NCBI GenBank assembly: GCA_015062655.1
Contig: SUUG01000005.1
Span: 1 to 64,000, forward strand
Reading direction: 5' to 3'
DNA: 64,000 nucleotides
Source: Coriobacteriaceae bacterium
Lineage (GTDB): Bacteria; Actinomycetota; Coriobacteriia; Coriobacteriales; Coriobacteriaceae
The translations under genes and the position numbers were made by a program. Each line of letters opens with the position of its first letter. Within the stretch, counting starts at the first letter, position 1. Positions 7,874 to 56,433 of the stretch are shown piece after piece. The notes under the pieces were generated by a model, which ran no database searches, was not told where the DNA came from, and saw nothing but the letters and a program-made list of their open reading frames with translations.

Positions 7874-8465
7874 AGGGGCCGAGACACGCCGCGCCTCCGT
7901 TACTCGTTTATGGAGCACGCGGTGCCGCTCGCCGTCCGCGACGGGCATCGGCCGGGCCTCCCAGAACCTGGCCGCCCTGCGCCTGAACGACCTCCCCTGC
8001 CCGGGCATCTCCCGCTGCGGGCCCTTGGACATGAGCCAGCCGAGGAGCTCGCGCAGGGCGGCGGCGTCGCCATCGCGGCGGACCGTCGACGACGCCCCGC
8101 AGGAGGGGCGGCGCCACCGCTGCCTGCCCGCCGACGTCCTCCCGCTCCCCTTCATCTTCGCCCCGCAGGACGGGCGCTTCACGGACTTCACGGCGGACCT
8201 CCCGCAGACGGTTTCATGGCGTCTAAAAGAGGGTATCCACCTGCGGATACGTCCGTCTATCGGACACACGTTTCGTCCGGGTGCCTAAAACCGGCCGCGA
8301 GTTGTAAAGTCACGGGAAAGGGCCTCCTACCTGCGTAGACGGCCCAGAATTGGACACACTTTTTGTCCTATAACCCAGAATGTCGGCTCAGTTTGTAGCT
8401 GATATGTCATTGCTGATGGGATTTATTCAAAGTGATGGCCCGATGCTGAAGGCAGCTTCATATTA

Positions 8466-8500
8466 AAAAGGAGGCCCGACGCATCAGGCCTCCTTAGGTG
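8466..8500 (-). terminator. Rho-independent terminator
   Basis: On the minus strand AAGGAGGCC-tgatgcgtcg-GGCCTCCTT is followed by TTTAATA. Confidence 0.7.
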
Positions 8501-8899
8501 CCGCCCGCAAGCGGACACCGCTATTGGTTTGTAAGTATATCAGACTCGGCGGACAGATGGGTGAGCCCTACTGAGTAGCGTGCCGCTAAGAAAAGCTCGC
8601 AAGGGCATTTTCGTCGGGCGCCATGCCTGATTGCAATATCGATGCTGTGCGCTTCATTTGACCGAGGCATTTCCCCTCGACGACCCCTTTTGTCCGTAAA
8701 GACAAGAGGGGCCGTTTTTTTTGTGTGCATGACTCCTCTTTGTCTCAAGGGGAGGCGGCATGGCTCGCTTTTACGCTCGACAGGCCTCGCCGGACGGTGC
8801 GCCGCTGGTTTCGATAAAACGGCCCGACGGGAGCAGGGTCCTCGTGGGGGTGAGTGTCGAGGTCTCAGAGGCGCTCGTTGACATGCAGCGGGAGGCGTG

Positions 8900-9895
8900 G
8901 CGGTAGTGTCGGGAAAGTTGGTGTAGTGGCTCGTTAGCCGAGAATCCGGCCAATGCCCCGAATCACCATCTCCCTGACATCCTATGCTGCCTCCAGCTTG
9001 TCCGCAAGCTCGAGGCTGGCGTCGATCGCCCCCTGCGCCACCAGCCGGAAGACGGCGGCCCGCCCTTCGGTGGGCGGCTCGCCGGCCGGCCCCTCCTCGC
9101 AGAGCTCCGCCATCGCCTTCTCGGAGAAGTGGCGGGAGGCCGACCGGGCATCGTCCTGATCGCACATGACGGCGCCGGCGAGGCGCTCCAGCGACGCGGC
9201 GGACGGGAACGCCTGCACCACGCGGCTCCTTCGCTTTATCTCCCTGTTCGCCCGCTCCTAGAGGTTGTTGGTCCGCAGGCGCTTCCAGTGGCTCGCCGGG
9301 AAGTCGAGGTGGGCGAGCGCGTCGGGCTCCGCCCCCTCGAGGATGCGCGCCCCCTCGGGGCAGCACCCCTCCAGCATGTCGGCGGCGATGTGGCAGGCCG
9401 CCCTCACGGCCCCCGCCCCCTTGAGCCGGGACACGGGCGCGACGATGCGGCGGACGCGCTTGGCGAGCCTCCTCGAGCCCGCCGCCCGCGCGCAGTCGCG
9501 CATCAGGTGCACGACGCAGCGCTGCCGGGCGGCCCCCTGGAACTCCTCCTCCACCGCCCGCCGGAGCCCCTCGTGGGCGTCGGAGGTGACGAGCCTGACG
9601 CCGCGGACGCCCCCGGCCCCGATTCCCCTGGGGAAGGCCGGCCACGAGCCGTGGCTCTCGGTGTCCACGACCCCGATTCCGAGGACGTGCCTCCAGCCGT
9701 CCGTGTCGCAGCCGATCGCGGTGGCGACGGCCGTCGAGGCGACGCGGCCCTCGCGCCTGCACTTGACGTACGTCGCGTCGATCCACAGGCAGGGCGGGCT
9801 CAAGGCGTTCGGCGGGGGCGGCGGGACCGTGCACGACGCCATCAGGGGCCGCAGGGAGCGGCTCGGGCCGGCCGCCTAGGCCCGTCCAAGAAAAC
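8900..9895 (-). pseudogene. IS256/mutator-family transposase remnant (N-terminus missing, in-frame TAG)
   Basis: [14 protein letters not shown]...[32 protein letters not shown]...[41 protein letters not shown] at 9258-9260. One end near 8903 reads gtgtcgggaaagttggtgtag. Confidence 0.85.
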
Positions 9896-9899
9896 GTCC

Positions 9900-10158
9900 G
9901 CATCCCCACTTCGCCGCCCACGATAACCGTGTTTGCAGTCACAAAGGTCTCGCAGGCGCAGCGGGCCTTGCCGATTCCGGGTGACATATCCGATGATGTG
10001 CCCCGTTCTTCGTTCTCGAGATTTATCTCATCGCTGAGTATGGCATCCAAGATGGCATCAGATATTTGATCGCATATTTTATCGGGATGACCTTCCGTAA
10101 CGCTTTCCGAAGTGAAAAGGTGTTCACAAGCTGAAATGGAATGGCGGATGTCAATCAT
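9900..10158 (-). pseudogene. metK: S-adenosylmethionine synthetase MetK, N-terminal fragment
   Basis: [29 protein letters not shown]...[21 protein letters not shown], then loses homology where it meets the IS256 remnant. Confidence 0.88.
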
Positions 10159-10258
10159 GGTCGTTCTCTTTACTATTCAGATGGCTCATCTGCTCTGCCA
10201 AGTTTCGAAGAAATGAAGATGCATATTTGCTGGTTATCGTGATGGATGTTCATGGCTA

Positions 10259-11173
10259 TCACTTTGGCGTTACATTGAGCACCATGTCGCACAGCGTGAC
10301 GCTGATAGACGCCATGGCAAAAAGAATGAAGAGAAGATTGGCGCAATAGTAAAGAAGCAAGATTCTTTCGACTCGTTGACCGGCGAGAGCCATCTTGAAA
10401 GCCCTTTTGGAGCGCTTCATTAAATTTGGGACAGAAAGGATATCGCAAAGAATGAAATAGCCGTCAAGCTTGAGAAAGGGCGTGAGGTTTCCCACAATGA
10501 AGGCTATGGAGACATAGTTTAATGGTAGATACAACTTACCGGAGGCCAGCTCTGCAATGCATAGGCAGAGCAATGTGACGCTGTTGAAATATGGGCCGGC
10601 GAGGGAGGTGGCAATTCGCTGCTTCGTGCTCGCCATGCAAATATCTGCGGTGTCCACAAAGAACATGGGAAGACCATAGTTAAGCTTGAGACCGCATCTG
10701 CCAACCGTTCTTCCTGCGCGCATGCATGCTAGCACATGCCCACTTTCATGGACAGTTATGCTGAAGACAATCCAAAGTGTCAAGAGAGCAGGGTTGGCAT
10801 CGGCAAGATTTACAGTCGATTGGCAGATGAAGCTGGCGGCAATGGCAGCGATGCAAGATGCAATCATCAACAAGGGAGAGAAGAACCAGACGGGAGGCAT
10901 ACTCTTTAGTCGAGAAGAGGGGTCAAAGGAGAAGATTCTGCGCATGTACCAGCGATCCTCGGCGACACATGGACGTTCGTTGTTGAAGCATCTTTCGCTA
11001 AAACGCAATAAACCACTTGAGGGCAACTGCATCAGCGCCTGCAAATGTGACCCACGAACTAGCTTGTATCGTGTTGGATTTAATTGCTTGATTATTGCAT
11101 AGGAGCACCCTTCGAAGTGGATTTCATACTGTTCACTCCCCTTCGATTGAACGAAGATATTTTGCATAGACAT
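10259..11173 (-). CDS. M50-type membrane zinc metalloprotease (YydH-like RiPP protease)
   Basis: Multiple TM segments, HESGH (HExxH) and TPFLKLDGYFIL (LDG motif); next to the radical SAM and ABC genes. Confidence 0.82.
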   Translation of the reverse strand: MSMQNIFVQSKGSEQYEIHFEGCSYAIIKQLNPTRYKLVRGSHLQALMQLPSSGLLRFSERCFNNERPCVAEDRWYMRRIFSFDPSSRLKSMPPVWFFSPLLMIASCIAAIAASFICQSTVNLADANPALLTLWIVFSITVHESGHVLACMRAGRTVGRCGLKLNYGLPMFFVDTADICMASTKQRIATSLAGPYFNSVTLLCLCIAELASGKLYLPLNYVSIAFIVGNLTPFLKLDGYFILCDILSVPNLMKRSKRAFKMALAGQRVERILLLYYCANLLFILFAMASISVTLCDMVLNVTPK

Positions 11174-12131
11174 CTCGACGATAGCTTTCTAGGTAGGGTT
11201 CGAGCTTTTTAATGAACTCGGTGTCGGAAAAGACTCGATAGCACAGGTCGCAGATTCCGATGTAGCTTTCTGATTCAAAGTCTCGGTGCCCAATTTGCTT
11301 GGCAAGTTTGACGAAATGACCGATGCCGTGCTTCGCGGCAATTCTTACAAGCATGTTTGAATGGTACCTTTTGCAGAGGTCCCCAATTTCATCTTGGAAT
11401 ACGTTTCCAAGGCGGAACGCTTCGATGCGTCCCATTTGAGAGCAACAAGGATAGGCTTCACCGTCCGGATATATAGCGATCATACTAAGATCGCTACAAT
11501 GACCATTTTTCTTTGCAATGGTTGAATCATAGATGTAATCGGATGGTTCAATATATTTAGCTGCGGAGCCGACCGGAAGACACGGAGCAACGATGTGGCG
11601 AACACCTATGAGTAATTCTCCCAGCTCGCTAAACATATCCCCAAGGTCGCATTCGGAATGCGTGATAATGCTGCCGATATCACAGGGCAAATCACGCTTC
11701 TTTGCGGCTCGAAGAACGTTCGCAACATTCTTTACAGGGATATATTCTCCATGGAATCTATCGGCGCTGATGCTTAGCCTTGTGAGCCCGGCATCGCAGA
11801 GCTCCGATACGATTCGCTCGGCGTCGGCTGGGGTTTTCGCCCAAAAGCAATTTGTCGTGCAGCTCGACTCGAATTCAAAGTCATGTGCCATGCCAACAAA
11901 CTACAAGAGATCCTGATAGCGCAAGAAAGGTTCTCCACCTGAAAAAGCGATGGTTTTCAAGCTAGCGTATCCATTGGAACGATGGGTGGCGGCCTCCTTT
12001 ATAACACGTTCCACGACGCTTGCCGGTATTTGTTCCTTTCTGGCGGGCCCGCACTCAAAGCAGCACATTCGGCATTGGGCGTTGCATTGAAACGTTAAAA
12101 TAATCCCAATCGTCCGGACCTGAGCTTTCAT
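11133..12131 (-). pseudogene. Radical SAM RiPP-modifying enzyme (YydG-like epimerase candidate) interrupted by one in-frame TAG at 11901-11903
   Basis: N-part TIGIILTFQCNAQCRMCCFEC (CxxxCxxC) ...AFSGGEPFLRYQDLL*, continuing in the same frame FVGMAHDFEFESSCTTNCFWAKT... with C-terminal CC...CDLC cysteines. ORFs 11901..12131 and 11133..11891 are in phase. Confidence 0.85.
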
Positions 12132-12134
12132 GTC

Positions 12135-12926
12135 TTACCTCCCTTGAGTTGAAGGCGAGCCCCAATATCGGTTGTTTTTCGCCAGGCGCCTTACTCCTAG
12201 CGCTGCGGTTCCCACAGCGATTAGCAGCCATATAAGGGATAGTGAGAGGGCGATAAAAGGTCCGTGCAATGAGAAGTCAAGGGAAAGCGAGGCAATCTGC
12301 GGGCTGATTCCGTCATAACCTAGGAGATAACCCATCATGAATGTCGAGAAGCTGCTGGTATCGGTCTGGAACGTCAGTCCGTAGAAGTTGTAATTAATCG
12401 AACTTCCAATTACAAACAGGATGAAGAGGGCAAGAACGGAAAACATGGGGTTGCGAAGAAAGACCGATACGGCGCAGGAGAGCGCGAGGACGAACGCAAC
12501 GGCAAGAAGCGAGTAGGATACTGCATAGACATTGGCATGAATATTGGAGCTGTCGTTGGCGATGATGACGACAGCGAAAACAACCAACACGCCAACCCAG
12601 GAGCATATTAGCAAGACCGTCGCTCGCGATATCATTGCACGAACTGGAGAGACACCAATCTGTGGATAGAAGTCATACGAACCATTTTGAAAATCACGTG
12701 AGAAGGCATAGGAGTATACAGATCCTAGAGAAATCACGCTGAATTGAGCGAAAGAGTTGAACACTGATATGATTGCCGCATCACCTTGCTCGAGACGGTA
12801 TGCCTGCATGAGCGATGGTGCGAAAAAGAAGGTCGTGCCGACGAACAATGTAAAGATTGCAAGAAGGGCGAAAAGGAGATTGCCCCGCTTTGCTCGCGAA
12901 AATTCAAAGCGAAGAAGCCGATTCAT
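12135..12926 (-). CDS. ABC transporter permease (YydJ-like)
   Basis: About six hydrophobic segments, ABC-2-like; overlaps the adjacent ATPase gene by about 23 nt. Confidence 0.75.
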   Translation of the reverse strand: MNRLLRFEFSRAKRGNLLFALLAIFTLFVGTTFFFAPSLMQAYRLEQGDAAIISVFNSFAQFSVISLGSVYSYAFSRDFQNGSYDFYPQIGVSPVRAMISRATVLLICSWVGVLVVFAVVIIANDSSNIHANVYAVSYSLLAVAFVLALSCAVSVFLRNPMFSVLALFILFVIGSSINYNFYGLTFQTDTSSFSTFMMGYLLGYDGISPQIASLSLDFSLHGPFIALSLSLIWLLIAVGTAALGVRRLAKNNRYWGSPSTQGR

Positions 12927-13593
12927 GTGCGGTCTCCCTTTCGTTCGATTTGATTATCGACATCATGAACCGACGAAGTTTCTCAACGGTTCTACTTCCG
13001 TCATAGCGGATGAGTTGCGAGCTTGCGGCATCAAGGAAGAAAATCTCCCCCCCGAGATCGATTACATCTTCAAGATTGTGAGAGGTGTTGAAGACGGTGA
13101 TTCCTTGAAGTCTCCTTACGGCGTCAAGACATGTTTCTCGACTTCGGTAGTCAAGTCCGCTGAACGCTTCATCAAGAAGAAGGATTCGCTTGCCCGCCGC
13201 TAAAACAAGAGATATTTCTAAAAGACGCCGCTGCCCAGTACTTAAAGCGGAAACTTTGCTGTGGAGTAGTAAGGAAACAGAATCTGCGAGCACTGGAGAA
13301 CAATCGCATAAACGTTCAAAGCATTGCGGGCCAATGAGTTTGAGCAAATCGTTAACAGATACTTCGAGAGGCGGTTGAATCCTGTCAGATATCAACGAGC
13401 AACTGCTAGTGACGAGATGGGGGACTGAGCCTTTGAGAGGCGGAATTACTCCCGCAAGAGTTTTATAGAAAGTTGTTTTCCCGCAGCCATTGTCGCCAAC
13501 GATGTTGATGGTTGTTCCAAGGTCGAAATCAATCGCCAAACCAATCAGAAGGGGATCGTTTCTATTATAGCCGATGTCTAGACGCAACTGCAT
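12904..13593 (-). CDS. ABC transporter ATP-binding protein (YydI-like)
   Basis: INIVGDNGCGKTTFYKTL (Walker A), LSTGQRRLLEISLVLAAGKRILLLDEAFSGLD. Start placed at MQLRLDIG; the open frame extends to 13614. Confidence 0.85.
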   Translation of the reverse strand: MQLRLDIGYNRNDPLLIGLAIDFDLGTTINIVGDNGCGKTTFYKTLAGVIPPLKGSVPHLVTSSCSLISDRIQPPLEVSVNDLLKLIGPQCFERLCDCSPVLADSVSLLLHSKVSALSTGQRRLLEISLVLAAGKRILLLDEAFSGLDYRSRETCLDAVRRLQGITVFNTSHNLEDVIDLGGEIFFLDAASSQLIRYDGSRTVEKLRRFMMSIIKSNERETAHESASSL

Positions 13594-13827
13594 GACCGCT
13601 CTCCTCCGACGCAAGAAGGATAATTAGTTCAGTATAGCATATGTATATGGAAGAATAGTCTTTTTTGAGAAAAACAGTTGCTTTAGATTCACCAACATGG
13701 TATTTAGGAATCTAAATAGAAGTCTAGCTATCTCGCTTCGAAGATGGAGGCTCATGAAGGAGGTGAAAATACGGGTCGATATCATGAGAAACGGGGATAG
13801 ATTGGGAGAAGATGATTGGAGGACAAG

Positions 13828-13968
13828 ATGGAGAAGAACGAGAAGAAGATTATGAGCATCGATGAGCTGCTGGAAACTGACTTCGATTCTGAGGTTGAGG
13901 ATGTTGAAGGACACGAGAACCTCACTTGGATTCTCTGGGGTCCTCAGTGGATCATCGTGACTCCATAG
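13828..13968 (+). CDS. Candidate RiPP precursor peptide, 46 aa (MEKNEKKIMSIDELLETDFDSEVEDVEGHENLTWILWGPQWIIVTP)
   Basis: SD ggagg about 6 nt upstream (attGGAGGacaagATG); acidic leader, Trp/Ile-rich C-terminus; followed by a strong terminator; divergent from the ABC/radical SAM/M50 genes. Below the ORF-track length cutoff. Confidence 0.75.
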   Translation: MEKNEKKIMSIDELLETDFDSEVEDVEGHENLTWILWGPQWIIVTP

Positions 13969-13991
13969 TATCTTTGGCATCGTTGTGTTTG

Positions 13992-14035
13992 GGGCGGGGT
14001 CCCGATGATTTCATCGGGACCCCGCCCATCTTTTC
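13992..14035 (+). terminator. Rho-independent terminator after the precursor peptide
   Basis: gggcggggtcccgatga-tt-tcatcgggaccccgccc perfect inverted repeat, then atctttt. Confidence 0.85.
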
Positions 14036-14199
14036 AGGGTTTTGGCGTGCCCGGAGTGCGCAGCGCGCCGGGAAAGAGAACCGTCCGTCACTTGGGTGAT
14101 GGCTATTCGTTTTACAGGATCACCCTCCCGCTGGACACTTGCAATCGCTCCGGGTGCGAGGAATCCGAATGGAGGGGGTGGTGAGCGTGTGGATCAGAA

Positions 14200-14475
14200 G
14201 GTCTGCAGTCTGTCGTACACGAAGTGGATGTGCAGGCACCGCATTGTGTTCACGTCGAAGTATAGGCGCAGGGTGATAAACAGCCAGTCGGATTCAACCT
14301 TAGCGAGTTTTTCAGGAGGCCCTGCCGGTGCAAGGGAATCGAAATAATCAGGGGCGTCTGATGCTCGGCCATGTGCACGTGCCGTTCGCCATGCCATCGA
14401 AGCTCTTGGTGACGATCGCTGGGCGCATCAGGGAGCAGGAGAAGGCGAACATAGTTCAGTGTCAAGGAGCATGAG
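14200..14475 (+). pseudogene. IS200/IS605 TnpA (Y1 transposase) remnant
   Basis: SLSYTKWMCRHRIVFTSKYRRRVI...EIIRG.LMLGHVHVPFAMPSK: recognisable IS200 TnpA motifs, frameshifted and truncated. Confidence 0.8.
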
Positions 14476-15521
14476 GGCCTGTTTGGGGAGGCGCTGGCGC
14501 CGTCAGTTTGACCTGTTCGCCACCGGTTAAGCTGCGATGTGGCCTGAACGAAGTTCGACCGGCGCCTTTAGACGTTGGCCTTAGACCCGAGTGCTGCACC
14601 CTAAGAGCGGACCATCCTGCCCAAGGGCAGTCTTGATTTGCTGGATGAAGCATCCTTAACTAGGGAAATTGCAATTTGTGCAGTATCGACAAGTGCGATT
14701 CATATTCGTTTGCATGCGATTCCTCAGTGTCTGACCGCGTGTTGGATGACTTCATGGTGTCTTGGGACGCAAACGGTCAGGGGTTTTGAATGCGCATCAT
14801 GTTGATATGATGGTGCTCTCTCCTCGATCTAGGCTTTGTGCGGAAAAGGGTAAAGGCGCAGACAGGCGCTGTGTTTCGGGATGTCTAATGTTTTGGCGTG
14901 GTGGTTTGCTGTGTCACATTCGATCCCGAACTCGACTATGGCCAATTTCGACAGGGTGACATCGGTCGGCTTATTTTCGTGATTCGTCTGCCCCCTCGAT
15001 TGCTACAGACAATCCAGAAAAACAAATAAATATTAATTTCGCCGGCTTCCCCCGCTAGGTACGTCCTGTCCGTATGGATGAGGGGGCGCTCCCCTCATGG
15101 ACCTTGAGAACCGCATAACCGTCCGCAACGGCAAGGGCATGAGCGCGCCACGCGATGAGGGCTCTCGGGGGCGGACGGGAGCCGCGTCGTGCGGCGTTGT
15201 CGGTCGCGGGCGCGATTGCCCCGCGACCGTACATACACCTTCAGACAGTTGACGGGCGGCGTTGAGAGCAGGCTTATGCCCCTCGGTATAAAAGACCTCG
15301 TTTTGCGCCTCCAGGATGTGCGCGGCGTCCCCGATGCGCTCGGCGCACCTCTCGCTTATCGAGCTCAGGGCCAGGACGCCCTCGACGTCGAGCGGGTCCA
15401 GCTGGTCGGCGTGCGCCAAGGATTCGAGCAGCTGGTCCAAGCCCCTTGCCTGACGTCGCTGGCACCTTTTTAAAGAGCGGCTGATCGGCTTTCAATGAAA
15501 GAAAGCAAGAGGTCGACCAAA

Positions 15522-15560
15522 GGAAAAGCGGGGCGCTCTCCAGCTGGAGAACGCCCCGCG
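15522..15560 (-). terminator. Rho-independent terminator downstream of the LPXTG gene
   Basis: Minus strand gcggggcgttctcc-agct-ggagagcgccccgc followed by TTTTCCTTT. Confidence 0.85.
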
Positions 15561-15586
15561 CTCGTTTACGACATTGCCTAGATCGT

Positions 15587-16891
15587 CTAATCTTCTGACT
15601 CGCGATCTCGACGGGCCCTCCTAGCGAGTGCCAAGCTCGCCGCGGCCGCGCAGGCCGCGCCTGCGGCTGCCAGGGCGGCGATTCCGCTCTCGTCCCCGGT
15701 TTTGGGCAGAGCCTTGACCGAAGAGGCAGGACCGGACTTCTTGGAAGGATCCTGGCTCGCGCGGCCGCGCTGCCCGGAGTTGCCGCCGCCCTCCACGGAC
15801 CTGCGGGGAGGTTCCTTGCCGGCGCCGTCCTTGCCGTCCGGCTCAGCCGGGCCGGCAGGGGGCAGGGTCGCGGGGACCTGCTGCAGCCGGGTGTAGAAGT
15901 TCCTCACGACGTTCCCGGCCTTCACCTGCACCCTGGACCCGGAGTCGACGTAGGCTCCCATCGAGGCGGTCTCTCCGGCCGCGAAGCGGTAGCCCTGCGG
16001 CAGGGAGAACTCGAGGGTGTACTCGCCCTCGGGCACGTCCGCGAACTCGAAGGTGAAGCCGTTGGCGAGGATCCGGGAGGGCTCCACCCGGGCGCCGTCG
16101 GCCGAGACGAGGGCCGGCTTCATCTCGCCGAGCAGGGCGGCGTCGGGGTAGTCCCGCCCCCCGTCGACGAGCAGGTGCACGCTGAACTGCACGCGCTTGG
16201 CGGTCGCGGGCGCCGGGGCGTCCTCAACGAAGGTCCACGAGGCGTACGTGCCCAGGTTGCCCTTCATCACGCTGGTGTCGCCCATGGGCCATCCGTCGAA
16301 CACCCACTTGCCGCCGTCGACCTCGACCTCGGTCCTGGCGGGCTGGGGATGGTGGACGACGTCGCCGTCCTTCAGGCCCTCGATCGGGGCGGGGAGGAGG
16401 TCGAGCACTTCCTTGGGCAGCCTGTCATGGCCGGCGGCCCCGCTCTTCGTGGACGGAGAGAAGTGGTAGTCCGCGAAGAGCGGCTTGTACTGCTCCATCT
16501 TCCACGTGCCGACGAACCTCACGTCCGCACCGTCGACCGTCGCCTCGGCCTTGTCCCAGCCCTGGAAGCGCCAGACGCCGCCGTCTCCTCTCACCTCGGT
16601 GGCCGCCGGTGCGGGCGGGACCACCCTCGTGCCGTCCGCGACGTCGGCCTGCGCGGCGGGCAGCAGGTCCTTCACCTCCTGGTTCAGAGTGCGCCATGCC
16701 ACGCTGCTCTTGAACTCGTAGCTGACCGTGTAGGAGGCTTCCGCCGCGCCCGAGAGGGCGCCAGCCGCCTCGGCGGCCGGCGCCTCGGGAACGGTCGCCG
16801 GCGGCTCGTCAGCGAAAGCCGCCCCTCCGCCGAGGCACATGGCAGCGGCCAGGCAAAGGGCGATGGCCGGCGCTGCTTTTCTCTTTCTCAT
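15587..16891 (-). CDS. LPXTG cell-wall-anchored surface protein with SHIRT-like domains
   Basis: Signal peptide MRKRKAAPAIALCLAAAMCLGGGAAFA; two repeats of Y-F-S...LPxEVxxLLPA...GDxVxxPxPAxTEVxxxGGxWxFxGW; C-terminal LPKTGD, TM, RRARRDRE. Confidence 0.9.
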   Translation of the reverse strand: MRKRKAAPAIALCLAAAMCLGGGAAFADEPPATVPEAPAAEAAGALSGAAEASYTVSYEFKSSVAWRTLNQEVKDLLPAAQADVADGTRVVPPAPAATEVRGDGGVWRFQGWDKAEATVDGADVRFVGTWKMEQYKPLFADYHFSPSTKSGAAGHDRLPKEVLDLLPAPIEGLKDGDVVHHPQPARTEVEVDGGKWVFDGWPMGDTSVMKGNLGTYASWTFVEDAPAPATAKRVQFSVHLLVDGGRDYPDAALLGEMKPALVSADGARVEPSRILANGFTFEFADVPEGEYTLEFSLPQGYRFAAGETASMGAYVDSGSRVQVKAGNVVRNFYTRLQQVPATLPPAGPAEPDGKDGAGKEPPRRSVEGGGNSGQRGRASQDPSKKSGPASSVKALPKTGDESGIAALAAAGAACAAAASLALARRARRDRESED

Positions 16892-16962
16892 GATGCGTCC
16901 TGTCCTTTCCTTGTCCTCTCGTTCTTGCAAACCGCGCCAGAGCGGCGCGGAAGAAGGCGTTG

Positions 16963-16992
16963 TTTATACACCCCCCCCCGTCTAGTTTTCAG
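16963..16992 (-). promoter_or_regulatory. Putative phase-variable promoter (G9 tract in the -35/-10 spacer)
   Basis: Minus strand CTGAAA-(18 nt containing GGGGGGGGG)-TATAAA, about 70 nt upstream of the LPXTG gene start. Confidence 0.5.
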
Positions 16993-17233
16993 TGTAACTG
17001 TGTATGCACTGAAGAACCACCATGATTGTAGATTTTTCTCGCAATCGCTCGTAGAAAATTAACTTATAGAAAAACGGGCCGATCGACCCTGTCCAGGTCA
17101 ATCCTTCTTTTGCGCTGTTTGCATCAAATCAGACGGCTGCAGGTATGGTCTATGCAGGATTGTCCAGGAAACCGAGAATCCCATCATCATCTTTCGAGAA
17201 TCCGGGCTTCGAAAACAATACGGGATCCTTGCC

Positions 17234-17602
17234 TTGAGCCTTCGCCAGATGGACCCGCTTCGCATCGGCACTCGATTGTATAACTACCCCCAGCTCGCCG
17301 ACAACCACGCCTACGTTGCCGCGGTAATCCAGGAAATCTTCGAGAAGGACATCCGCAGGCGCGCGATCAACTACGGGCCCGTGCTGGAGAACATCGTCTA
17401 TCGCTACGCTCTCGCGCAGGGTTGCAAGGTCAGCGTCGGACGCATCGGGAAGCTGGAATGTGACTTCATCCTCAGGAACCCCGAGATAGGCTACGCATAC
17501 GTTCAGGTTGCCATGACCATCATGGCCGACCGGGCAACGGAGGAGCGCGAATACCGGCCCTTCACTCAGTTATGGGAGCGAACGAGGACCACAAGGGCAT
17601 GA
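17234..17602 (+). pseudogene. AAA ATPase/DUF4143 family protein, C-terminal fragment
   Basis: GPVLENIVYRYALAQGCKVSVGRIGKLECDFILRNPEIGYAYVQVAMTI matches the DUF4143 nuclease-like domain; ATPase half absent. Confidence 0.75.
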
Positions 17603-53434: not shown

Positions 53435-53521
53435 ATGGAGATTGTAGTTAAAGCAGCTGCAGATGTTGTTGAGGTTGCTTGTAATGTCATGCATCCCTGT
53501 AAGCGAGGGCTTGATAAGTAA
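53435..53521 (+). CDS. Candidate RiPP precursor peptide, 28 aa (MEIVVKAAADVVEVACNVMHPCKRGLDK)
   Basis: Near-perfect SD (aaaGGAGGttgtcgatATG), consensus-like promoter, immediately upstream of a radical SAM/SPASM gene. Below the ORF-track cutoff. Confidence 0.8.
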   Translation: MEIVVKAAADVVEVACNVMHPCKRGLDK

Positions 53522-53540: not shown

Positions 53541-54815
53541 TTGTTAAAGGTTTCAAAATATACAATAACGGCTCCGTTTGAAGACGGAGCCGCTCTATAT
53601 AACTCGTTTAATGGCGCTTTCGCAATCTTAGACAAGGCTCACGCTGATTTCTTTGGTATGTTACCGGGTTGTTTCGATGAAGGATCAGATCACTTCGTTT
53701 CTGAGTTAAACAGTGCTGGTTTTTTGACAGATTCAAGTACTAATGAATTCGAGATGGCTCTCGCCGCGAGTCGAATTGCTAGGTTTGCGGGTGACGAGTT
53801 TTGTCTGACGATTGCGCCAACAACAGTGTGTAACTTTTCTTGCAGTTACTGTTATGAGCAGGGAATTAATCAGATTCCCTCTGGTTTTAGCTATGTCGAT
53901 ACCTTATATGGTTATATAAAAAGAAAATGTGGAAAGCATAAAAAAGTAGCTATATATTGGTACGGTGGCGAACCACTCCTTGCTACCAACGTTATTACCG
54001 AACTGACAGATATTCTTCTTGCGGATAGTGACATTGCTTCACTGCGCGCTTCTGTTATCACGAATGGTTTTTATCTAGATGAAAAAACCTGCCACCTATT
54101 GAAAGAGGCAAAGGTTGAGAGCATTCAAGTTACGCTAGATGGACCTAAGTTAGTGCACGATGCGCGTCGCCATCTTCGATCTGGCTCAGGAACTTTCGAC
54201 ACCATCATTTCGAATTTGAAGCATGCAGTGCAGTTTTTCAAAATATATATCAGGGTGAATCTTGATAAGTGTAATTCGAAAAGCGCACTTGAGCTGTTCG
54301 ATGAGCTGGAGGCAGCTGGGCTTAAAGAAAAGATTGTTCTCTATACCGCGATGGTTGACTCGGTTTCAGGCTGCTATGGGAAGTGCATGAGCACATCTCA
54401 ATATGTAGGTGCTGATTTAGATTTCTCTCGTGCCGCAATCAAAAAAGGGTTCAGTATCTCGTTGCTTAACAGTTTATCGATTGGTATCTGCGGTGCCGTC
54501 TCAGGCAATTCAGTTGTAGTTGACCCTTCAGGACGCCTATATAAGTGCTGGGATGAAGTGTGTAGACTATCTTGCAGTTTTGCTTCTATAACTTCGGAAG
54601 AATGTTCAAATCAGAGCTATGCAAAGTGGATTAATTATGACCCGCCCCATGGAGAATGCGAGAACTGTTCTGTCTTTCCAGTTTGCATGGGTGGTTGCCC
54701 AAAAGAAAGAATGAGCCGTGACACCTCGAATTGCGACCCAATTCGTTATTCAATTCAAGAGAAAATACGCCTCAGGGCCCTTCTCCATAGGATGAAAGGA
54801 GGGCGCAATGCGTGA
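53541..54815 (+). CDS. Radical SAM/SPASM peptide-modifying protein
   Basis: TTVCNFSCSYCYEQG (CxxxCxxC), WYGGEPLL, C-terminal CGAVSGNSVVVDPSGRLYKCWDEV...CENCSVFPVCMGGCPKERM (SPASM); TTG start. Confidence 0.94.
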   Translation: MLKVSKYTITAPFEDGAALYNSFNGAFAILDKAHADFFGMLPGCFDEGSDHFVSELNSAGFLTDSSTNEFEMALAASRIARFAGDEFCLTIAPTTVCNFSCSYCYEQGINQIPSGFSYVDTLYGYIKRKCGKHKKVAIYWYGGEPLLATNVITELTDILLADSDIASLRASVITNGFYLDEKTCHLLKEAKVESIQVTLDGPKLVHDARRHLRSGSGTFDTIISNLKHAVQFFKIYIRVNLDKCNSKSALELFDELEAAGLKEKIVLYTAMVDSVSGCYGKCMSTSQYVGADLDFSRAAIKKGFSISLLNSLSIGICGAVSGNSVVVDPSGRLYKCWDEVCRLSCSFASITSEECSNQSYAKWINYDPPHGECENCSVFPVCMGGCPKERMSRDTSNCDPIRYSIQEKIRLRALLHRMKGGRNA

Positions 54816-56433
54816 GATCGTCTCGTGGTGCTGGCCCTACTTCGAAGATCGCGTGTCGCTCGTCCGCTACGTGCTGGTGAGCGTGCTGCGCTCCGTGCTG
54901 CTCGTCGCCGCGCCCTTTCTCGCCGGTTCGGTGATCAACCAGCTCATCGCACCGGGGGTGACGCTTTCAGCCGCCGTTCTGCCGTGCGCGCTCCTCGCGC
55001 TCACAGTGGGGCTCGCCGCCTTGTGCTCGTATCGTTCGACCATGCTCTACACGCATCTCCAGGCGGATTCCTCCTTCGCTATCGACTTGGAGGCCATGGA
55101 GCTGATCGCCCGTATGCCCCTCGCCTTCTTCACGGGGTTCGATCCCGCCTACTGGCGCCGCCGCCTTGATGACGACTCGAACGGCGTGACCATGTTCGTG
55201 CTCCTCACCGTCACGAATGCGCTGCGCAACGGAGGGGTGTTCATCTTCTCCGTTGCGGTCATGGCCGCGATCGACCCCGTGCTCGTGGGCGTCGCGGCGG
55301 CGCTCGCGGTGTGCTCGGGCTGCGCGTATCAGGTGCTGAGCCGGAGGATCTACCAATCGGGCCGCCTGTTCAACGAGGCCATGTCGCGCTATTCGGCCAC
55401 CGCGCTGCGGCTCCTCTCGTCCGTTTCCTTCATACGACGCAACGCCCTGTTCGGGCGGATCCCGAGCGAGATGCGCTCGGTGTACGCTCCGGTGCGCGAG
55501 CGCATGTACCAATCGAACCGGATGTGCGCCCTGGTGTCGCTCATAGCGGAGCTGCTCTCGGCCCTCGCCCTCGCGGGCCTTCTCGCGCTTTCGGCGTGGG
55601 AGGTGGTGCGCGGAGCGATGCTGCCGGGCTACGTGGCGACCGTGTACGGGTACTTCGGGATGATGAGGGAGTCGGTCGAGTATTTCGCGGGCCTGGGCGG
55701 GGAGTACCAGGGCGCGCGCGTCCACTTCGACCGCCTGCGCGAGCTGTTCTCCCAAGAGCCCGAGCGAAACGGCGGCGCGCTCCCCGCAGACATTTCCGAG
55801 ATCGTCATCGACGGCGCATCGGTGGCGTATCCCGGTGCCGACGGGCGCGCACTCGACGGTGTGAGCCACCGCTTCGAGCGCGGTGTCCTCTACGGCGTGC
55901 GCGGCGGGAACGGCGCCGGGAAGAGCACGCTGCTCAAGCTCATCAACGCGGAGCTCACGGATTGCGCCGCGGGAGGCGTCGCGCTCGGCGGGTGCGATAT
56001 CGGGGAGGTCGACCGCTACGGCGTGCGCCGGAGCCTCATCGGGTACGTCGACCAGGATCCCGTGATCGTCGCGGGGACGCTCTGGGAGAACCTCACCCTG
56101 CTCGAGCCCGCGGCGAGCGAGGAGCGCGTTGTGGAGCTCTGCCGCGCACTCGGCCTCGATCGCGTGCTCGAGCGGGGCGAGGGGCTCGCGCAGGAGCTCG
56201 ACGAGCACCGCTCGCCGCTCTCCGGAGGCGAGCGCCAGAAGGTCGCGATCATCCGCGTTCTGCTCAAGGATCCGCAGATCCTCCTGCTCGACGAGCCCAC
56301 CTCGGCGCTCGACGCTAACAGCGGGCGCCGCCTCGCCGAGGTGCTCGCCGCCATGGCGCCGGGGCGGATCACCATCGCGGTGTCGCATGACCCCGCCCTC
56401 CTCGACTCGTGCGACCGCGTGATCGAGCTGTAG
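54808..56433 (+). CDS. ABC transporter, fused permease/ATPase (no C39 peptidase domain)
   Basis: GVRGGNGAGKSTLLKLINAEL; LSGGERQKVAIIRVLLKDPQILLLDEPTSALDANSG; starts directly with TM segments; 8-nt overlap with the radical SAM gene. Confidence 0.93.
   Translation: MREIVSWCWPYFEDRVSLVRYVLVSVLRSVLLVAAPFLAGSVINQLIAPGVTLSAAVLPCALLALTVGLAALCSYRSTMLYTHLQADSSFAIDLEAMELIARMPLAFFTGFDPAYWRRRLDDDSNGVTMFVLLTVTNALRNGGVFIFSVAVMAAIDPVLVGVAAALAVCSGCAYQVLSRRIYQSGRLFNEAMSRYSATALRLLSSVSFIRRNALFGRIPSEMRSVYAPVRERMYQSNRMCALVSLIAELLSALALAGLLALSAWEVVRGAMLPGYVATVYGYFGMMRESVEYFAGLGGEYQGARVHFDRLRELFSQEPERNGGALPADISEIVIDGASVAYPGADGRALDGVSHRFERGVLYGVRGGNGAGKSTLLKLINAELTDCAAGGVALGGCDIGEVDRYGVRRSLIGYVDQDPVIVAGTLWENLTLLEPAASEERVVELCRALGLDRVLERGEGLAQELDEHRSPLSGGERQKVAIIRVLLKDPQILLLDEPTSALDANSGRRLAEVLAAMAPGRITIAVSHDPALLDSCDRVIEL

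Follow-up and report, generated by a model that had tools for sequence, protein, structure and literature searches.

A probable epipeptide-like RiPP cluster, likely inactive, on a low-GC island of a Coriobacteriaceae bacterium

Within a window of 64,000 nt (the whole stretch of DNA that was analyzed) with an overall GC content of 65.3%, a compact island of approximately 48% GC (0.47-0.49) carries genes which recall the yydFGHIJ/epeXEPAB clusters for epipeptides, described in the literature as a Firmicutes system. This raises the question whether an actinobacterium holds such a system, and whether this copy of it can still function. The evidence makes it likely that the island came in by horizontal transfer and encodes an epipeptide-like RiPP pathway, a variant far diverged from yydFGHIJ/epeXEPAB, which is probably inactive here.

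Gene content and state of the island

Four genes on the minus strand follow each other in the order ABC ATPase, permease, radical SAM enzyme and M50 protease, and a 46-aa ORF on the plus strand diverges from them approximately 230 bases upstream. The features of the island and its edges are as follows.

9258..9842, minus strand: truncated remnant of a Mutator-family (IS256-like) transposase at the island edge (PF00872, E 6e-36)
9913..10158, minus strand: truncated second metK, N-terminus of SAM synthetase (PF00438; 50% GC)
10259..11173, minus strand: M50-type membrane metalloprotease, YydH-like, with HESGH...LDG (PF02163)
11133..12131, minus strand: radical SAM peptide-modifying enzyme, YydG/EpeE-like, with one in-frame TAG (assigned by TIGR04078, PDB 8ai6 and model TM)
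11901..11903, minus strand: in-frame TAG (codon 77) interrupting the radical SAM gene, the sole stop in the frame
12135..12926, minus strand: ABC-2 type permease in the YydJ position (PF12730, E 9e-5)
12904..13614, minus strand: ABC transporter ATPase, YydI-like (PF00005; Walker A GDNGCGKTT, LSTGQ signature)
13594..13827, no strand assigned: divergent intergenic region, in which both promoters are expected and a scan found no consensus promoter
13828..13968, plus strand: ORF of the precursor peptide, 46 aa, MEKNEKKIMSIDELLETDFDSEVEDVEGHENLTWILWGPQWIIVTP
13992..14027, plus strand: intrinsic terminator of the precursor gene (16-bp stem, 13 GC pairs, T-rich tail)

The initial annotation had reported a compact low-GC block encoding these five proteins, and all of its coordinates and gene calls were correct. 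Curated families were matched by the radical SAM enzyme, the protease and the ATPase; the latter probably starts at ATG 13593 and not at TTG 13614. A search of positions 8000-17500 of the window against Rfam gave no match.

One scan, covering 85,462 species genomes, yielded one close relative, locus L013 in a Coriobacteriales MAG. The gene order there is ABC-permease-radical SAM-M50, as in the window; the enzymes are 42% and the proteases 33% identical. The L013 block has a GC content of 0.49 versus 0.62-0.67 in its host. Because both blocks are low in GC and lie in high-GC hosts, they look imported, and by its composition the cluster of this gut-type actinobacterium appears to be a foreign acquisition. 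In L013, the protease gene is followed by genes for a low-GC membrane protein of 180 aa and for an HTH_26 regulator (7883-8720), which may be part of the island there.

The metK fragment lies directly downstream of the protease gene on the same strand and is cut by transposase debris. It shares 66% identity with the complete genomic metK, in which the corresponding part has 69% GC, and L013 has no counterpart of the fragment. Its tie to the peptide cluster is uncertain; possibly it was once a SAM-supply gene within the island.

The radical SAM frame holds one nonsense codon in 332, with the catalytic residues and the remaining frame intact; the L013 homologue is free of stops. TAG terminates 16 of the 42 genes in the window, and no amber-suppressor tRNA (anticodon CUA) was present among the 48 tRNA genes found, all of which were typed locus by locus. 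With no such tRNA and with TAG in common use as a stop, the cluster is probably silent here; as the interrupted enzyme gene shows no sign of being suppressed, the locus probably makes no product, and recent inactivation of the island would be the simplest reading of the sequence. Amber suppression, considered as a candidate explanation, was unsupported by the tRNA set and by the ordinary usage of TAG. It is possible, if doubtful, that the gene is not truly broken (the TAG being an error of assembly, a mutation particular to the strain or a codon that is read through) and that the locus is active: just one codon is affected, every catalytic residue is preserved, the other cluster genes look full length and the L013 enzyme is unbroken, whereas the missing CUA anticodon, the role of TAG as an ordinary stop in the genome and a flank holding decaying metK and transposase pieces all speak for a broken gene.

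Radical SAM enzyme

The single stop was read through in silico for the enzyme searches and for folding. The CxxxCxxC motif recorded in the initial annotation is present as CNAQCRMCC. An HMM search of the TAG-masked gene, proposed at that stage, returned YydG as the best family, but at a score below the curated cut-off: the best NCBIfam match was TIGR04078 (YydG epimerase) with 178 bits and full-length coverage, the runner-up, MoaA, reached 42 bits, and the equivalog cut-off of TIGR04078 is 300 bits (L013 enzyme, 144 bits). The only full-length relatives in the PDB were the EpeE (YydG) structures 8ai1-8ai6, with a phmmer E-value of 1.1e-33 over positions 6-320 for 8ai6. A model from AlphaFold, for which 15 relatives were used (pLDDT 91), superposed on EpeE with a TM-score of 0.84-0.89, whereas the remaining listed folds reached at most 0.58. 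In a reading of the island as anti-phage defence, the radical SAM core gave weak viperin-type matches at best, and YydG was preferred.

The radical SAM cysteines 16/20/23 and, for the hydrogen donor and the second cluster, C229/C230 and C294/C297 do not vary across the whole compared set, true YydGs included. C229/C230 are the equivalents of EpeE C222/C223, and C230 matches the proposed hydrogen donor Cys223 (PMC8326336). More distant relatives of uncharacterised chemistry also retain the PCC cysteine pair, which is therefore necessary and not diagnostic; alone it is no proof of epimerisation. EpeE D210, the residue mutated in 8ai6, is not kept: Ser216/Met217 stand at this place in the window enzyme and Asn/Val in that of L013. 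The position holds D, E or Q in the YydF-linked clade and appears variable outside it.

Precursor peptide, predicted product and alternative chemistries

The 46-aa peptide consists of an acidic leader followed by the predicted core TWILWGPQWIIVTP at the C-terminus, and a Shine-Dalgarno-like GGAGG lies upstream of ATG 13828. A divergent peptide is likewise encoded in the related locus.

L013 4270..4428, minus strand: divergent peptide, 52 aa, MDNDSTVQHTTDIVMSPEELLESSFDTDVSEIEERDNLTWVLWGPQWVAVTS, 50% identical to the window peptide

The L013 peptide scored 143 against the window peptide; the highest scores otherwise were 42 among approximately 2,050 other ORFs and 55 among 2,000 shuffles. Since the L013 locus has a conserved divergent peptide, the window peptide is a real precursor. 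The core common to both is NLTW[I/V]LWGPQW[I/V]xVT; it forms a run of three W-x-x units (WIL, WGP and WII in the window) whose W, G, P and Q positions are invariant between the loci, and the first and last W each precede I or V.

Searches of the precursor against Pfam and NCBIfam gave no family match. Regarding the YydF family (TIGR04077), suggested earlier as a target for this search, neither the window peptide nor that of L013 matched. The initial annotation had named two findings as fatal to its reading, namely clustering of the enzyme with non-peptide-modifying enzymes and homologous loci devoid of the peptide; neither occurred, because EpeE and YydG are the closest relatives among solved structures and curated families and because the homologous locus L013 keeps the peptide. 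Epipeptide-type biosynthesis with a rearranged gene order and a divergent precursor, as then envisaged, is well supported, but the curated cut-offs were not reached, D210 is not kept and the enzyme gene is interrupted in this assembly.

Regarding the known yydFGHIJ/epeXEPAB clusters (Bacillus, Staphylococcus, Macrococcus, Enterococcus and Paenibacillus), the likeness comprises an EpeE-fold radical SAM enzyme, an M50-type protease, a two-part ABC transporter and a short precursor with a C-terminal aromatic/beta-branched core after [ND][DN]L. The gene order F-G-H-I-J differs from ABC-permease-radical SAM-M50 with a divergent precursor, the window leader is unrelated to the YydF leader, and the cluster stays below the family cut-offs for YydF, YydG, YydH, YydI and YydJ (ATPase versus NF058610 (YydI), 50 bits, cut-off 240; NF058605 (YydJ) matched via the L013 permease counterpart only, E 1e-4). 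True YydF precursors end in ...NDLWYFVKSxxNRWxxGSxH. The leader ends in NDL before W in YydF, DDL before W in actinobacterial YydF-type peptides, ENL before T in the window and DNL before T in L013; the core WILWGPQWIIV of the window spans 7 residues from first W to last W, that of YydF (WYFVKSKENRWIL) 10. Judged by eye, W followed by Ile/Val and a preceding [DN]L are present in both the window and the L013 peptide, with a spacing that differs from YydF; the W-[IV] units resemble the RW-I-L site of YydF, a peptide epimerised at Val36 and Ile44 (PMC8326336). The window peptide thus has the [DN]L before the core and the W-[IV] units in common with YydF, but departs from that family in profile, length and spacing. 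On these grounds the cluster is a variant distinct from the standard epipeptide, with its own new precursor family; it is named epipeptide-like because its mode of action is very probably that of an epipeptide system, yet it fails the formal family cut-offs.

In the proposed pathway, the EpeE-like enzyme would bind the divergently transcribed 46-aa precursor and abstract the C-alpha hydrogen from beta-branched residues next to tryptophans, candidate sites being the Ile of TW-I-L and QW-I-IV and, in the L013 peptide, Val. Cys230 would then give a hydrogen from the other face, so that D-residues, including D-Ile/D-Val in the core, are predicted. The membrane M50 protease would cleave behind the conserved [DE]NL (ENL in the window) at which the acidic leader ends, releasing the putative hydrophobic 14-mer TWILWGPQWIIVTP, and the ABC pair would serve peptide export or self-immunity. 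The product would probably be a small antimicrobial peptide with D-amino acids, directed at bacterial membranes. Known epipeptides are 17-mers which permeabilise membranes (PMC7026026, PMC12871923).

Two other chemistries on the same enzyme fold were weighed. It is rather unlikely that the cluster represents a separate RiPP class, on a low-GC island among gut Coriobacteriia, in which an EpeE-fold enzyme carries out a different or additional reaction on the WxLWGPQWxxV core; such a reaction may be Trp crosslinking or another D-residue pattern. Some radical SAM/SPASM enzymes crosslink Trp, and a run of three W-x-x units is unusual and exceeds what epimerisation alone needs. Trp-centred carbon-carbon crosslinks (cyclophane/triceptide-like) at WIL, WGP and WII, with no D-residues formed, would also fit the loss of EpeE D210; they are nevertheless held to be improbable, given that the cyclophane maturases DynA, YhhB and AmcB match weakly or not, compared with YydG, that the second-cluster pattern and the hydrogen-donor cysteine follow EpeE, and that the fold match is exclusive to EpeE.

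The protease bears on a further reading, a daptide-like or other RiPP with the M50 protease and ABC transporter as its core and the radical SAM enzyme in another role. The protease scored slightly higher with the daptide HExxH model NF041824 (71.9 bits, cut-off 300) than with the YydH/LiaK model NF058609 (64.5 bits, cut-off 225), as did that of L013 (68.9 versus 56.2 bits), but this ranking is uninformative because both scores are far below the cut-offs. With the predicted M50 structure (mean pLDDT 78) as query, Foldseek found nothing meaningful. Daptide clusters also carry aminotransferase, dehydrogenase and methyltransferase genes, none of which was recognised when the ORFs of both islands, that of the window and that of L013, were read by eye, and since the NF041824 cut-off is reached in neither locus this reading is very improbable. 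Lastly, short ORFs are common and this one lacks a Pfam or NCBIfam match, but the reading as a fortuitous frame next to a decayed transporter operon, serving no precursor function, is in practice refuted by L013: in that genome, which belongs to a different family of the order, a 50% identical peptide with an almost invariant core accompanies the orthologous operon, and the window ORF has its Shine-Dalgarno-like site and terminator.

Related loci and distribution

The epipeptide-like reading was set against further loci with YydG-like enzymes.

L015 5816-8443 (Cellulosimicrobium) and L017 5758-9240 (Bifidobacterium bohemicum): YydF-type loci in Actinomycetota, precursor-radical SAM-M50-ABC
L016 4162-7923 (Anaerococcus): ABC-permease-radical SAM-M50 and a peptide ending in DSILGPWFFVHKV
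L014 4329-4939 and 5050-6966, L018 5450-5982 and 6001-6942, L019 4638-4916 and 5008-6942: YydG-like enzymes and Nif11-leader-type peptides

The precursors of L015 and L017 end in DDLWYFINSGNGKWIAGA and DDLWYFIKGGGNWIMGS, respectively, and match the YydF family below its curated cut-off; their enzymes group with true YydG, and the window/L013 pair stands apart. The Anaerococcus locus shares the gene order of the window, a YydG-like enzyme and a YydH-like protease, but its precursor lies downstream on the same strand, and is possibly another epipeptide-like precursor type. The Nif11-linked loci have the enzyme superfamily and the cysteines in common with the window and differ in their Nif11 leaders (matched in L014 and L018); no M50 gene was detected in any of the three, which look like another epimerase-type RiPP group. 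Their peptide cores include SGWFLDGDTIYAGGYFIK, and in L014 and L019 two YydG-like radical SAM enzymes stand in tandem.

The window and L013 enzymes form a clade of their own with 100% bootstrap support. Its place inside or outside the YydF-linked clade is left undecided by the tree and by an AU test with too few replicates for a strict p-value; the candidate placements are as sister to the YydF-linked enzymes, as sister to the Nif11-linked ones (L014, L018 and L019), or outside both.

The variant is known from two loci in two genomes, the window and L013. At the thresholds used, the enzyme had no further copy in the window's family (67 genomes; other matches were partial, 34%), the class (401), L013's family (140) or the phylum (398), and in 399 genomes of the order the genome of L013 was recovered again and the enzyme was otherwise not found (these genome sets overlap). 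Viral contigs and phages held no relatives, and plasmids held distant relatives only and no match to the peptide.

A second RiPP-type locus was observed elsewhere in the window (53541-56433, plus strand), with a radical SAM/SPASM maturase followed by an exporter-type ABC protein. The maturase scored 244 bits with TIGR04463 and 238 bits with Clo7bot, both below cut-off, and a 28-aa ORF just upstream (53435-53521, plus strand; MEIVVKAAADVVEVACNVMHPCKRGLDK) is a candidate precursor.

The epipeptide enzyme family reaches Actinomycetota in two ways, as the classic YydF type (L015 and L017) and as a deep branch with an entirely different, Trp-rich precursor. Because few core positions separate the window and L013 precursors, the substrate rules of EpeE become testable, namely which Trp-adjacent residue the enzyme epimerises and whether it requires D210. 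From these gut bacteria a hydrophobic peptide of very small length would be expected, which may act on membranes, and the interrupted copy suggests gain and loss of islands of this kind.
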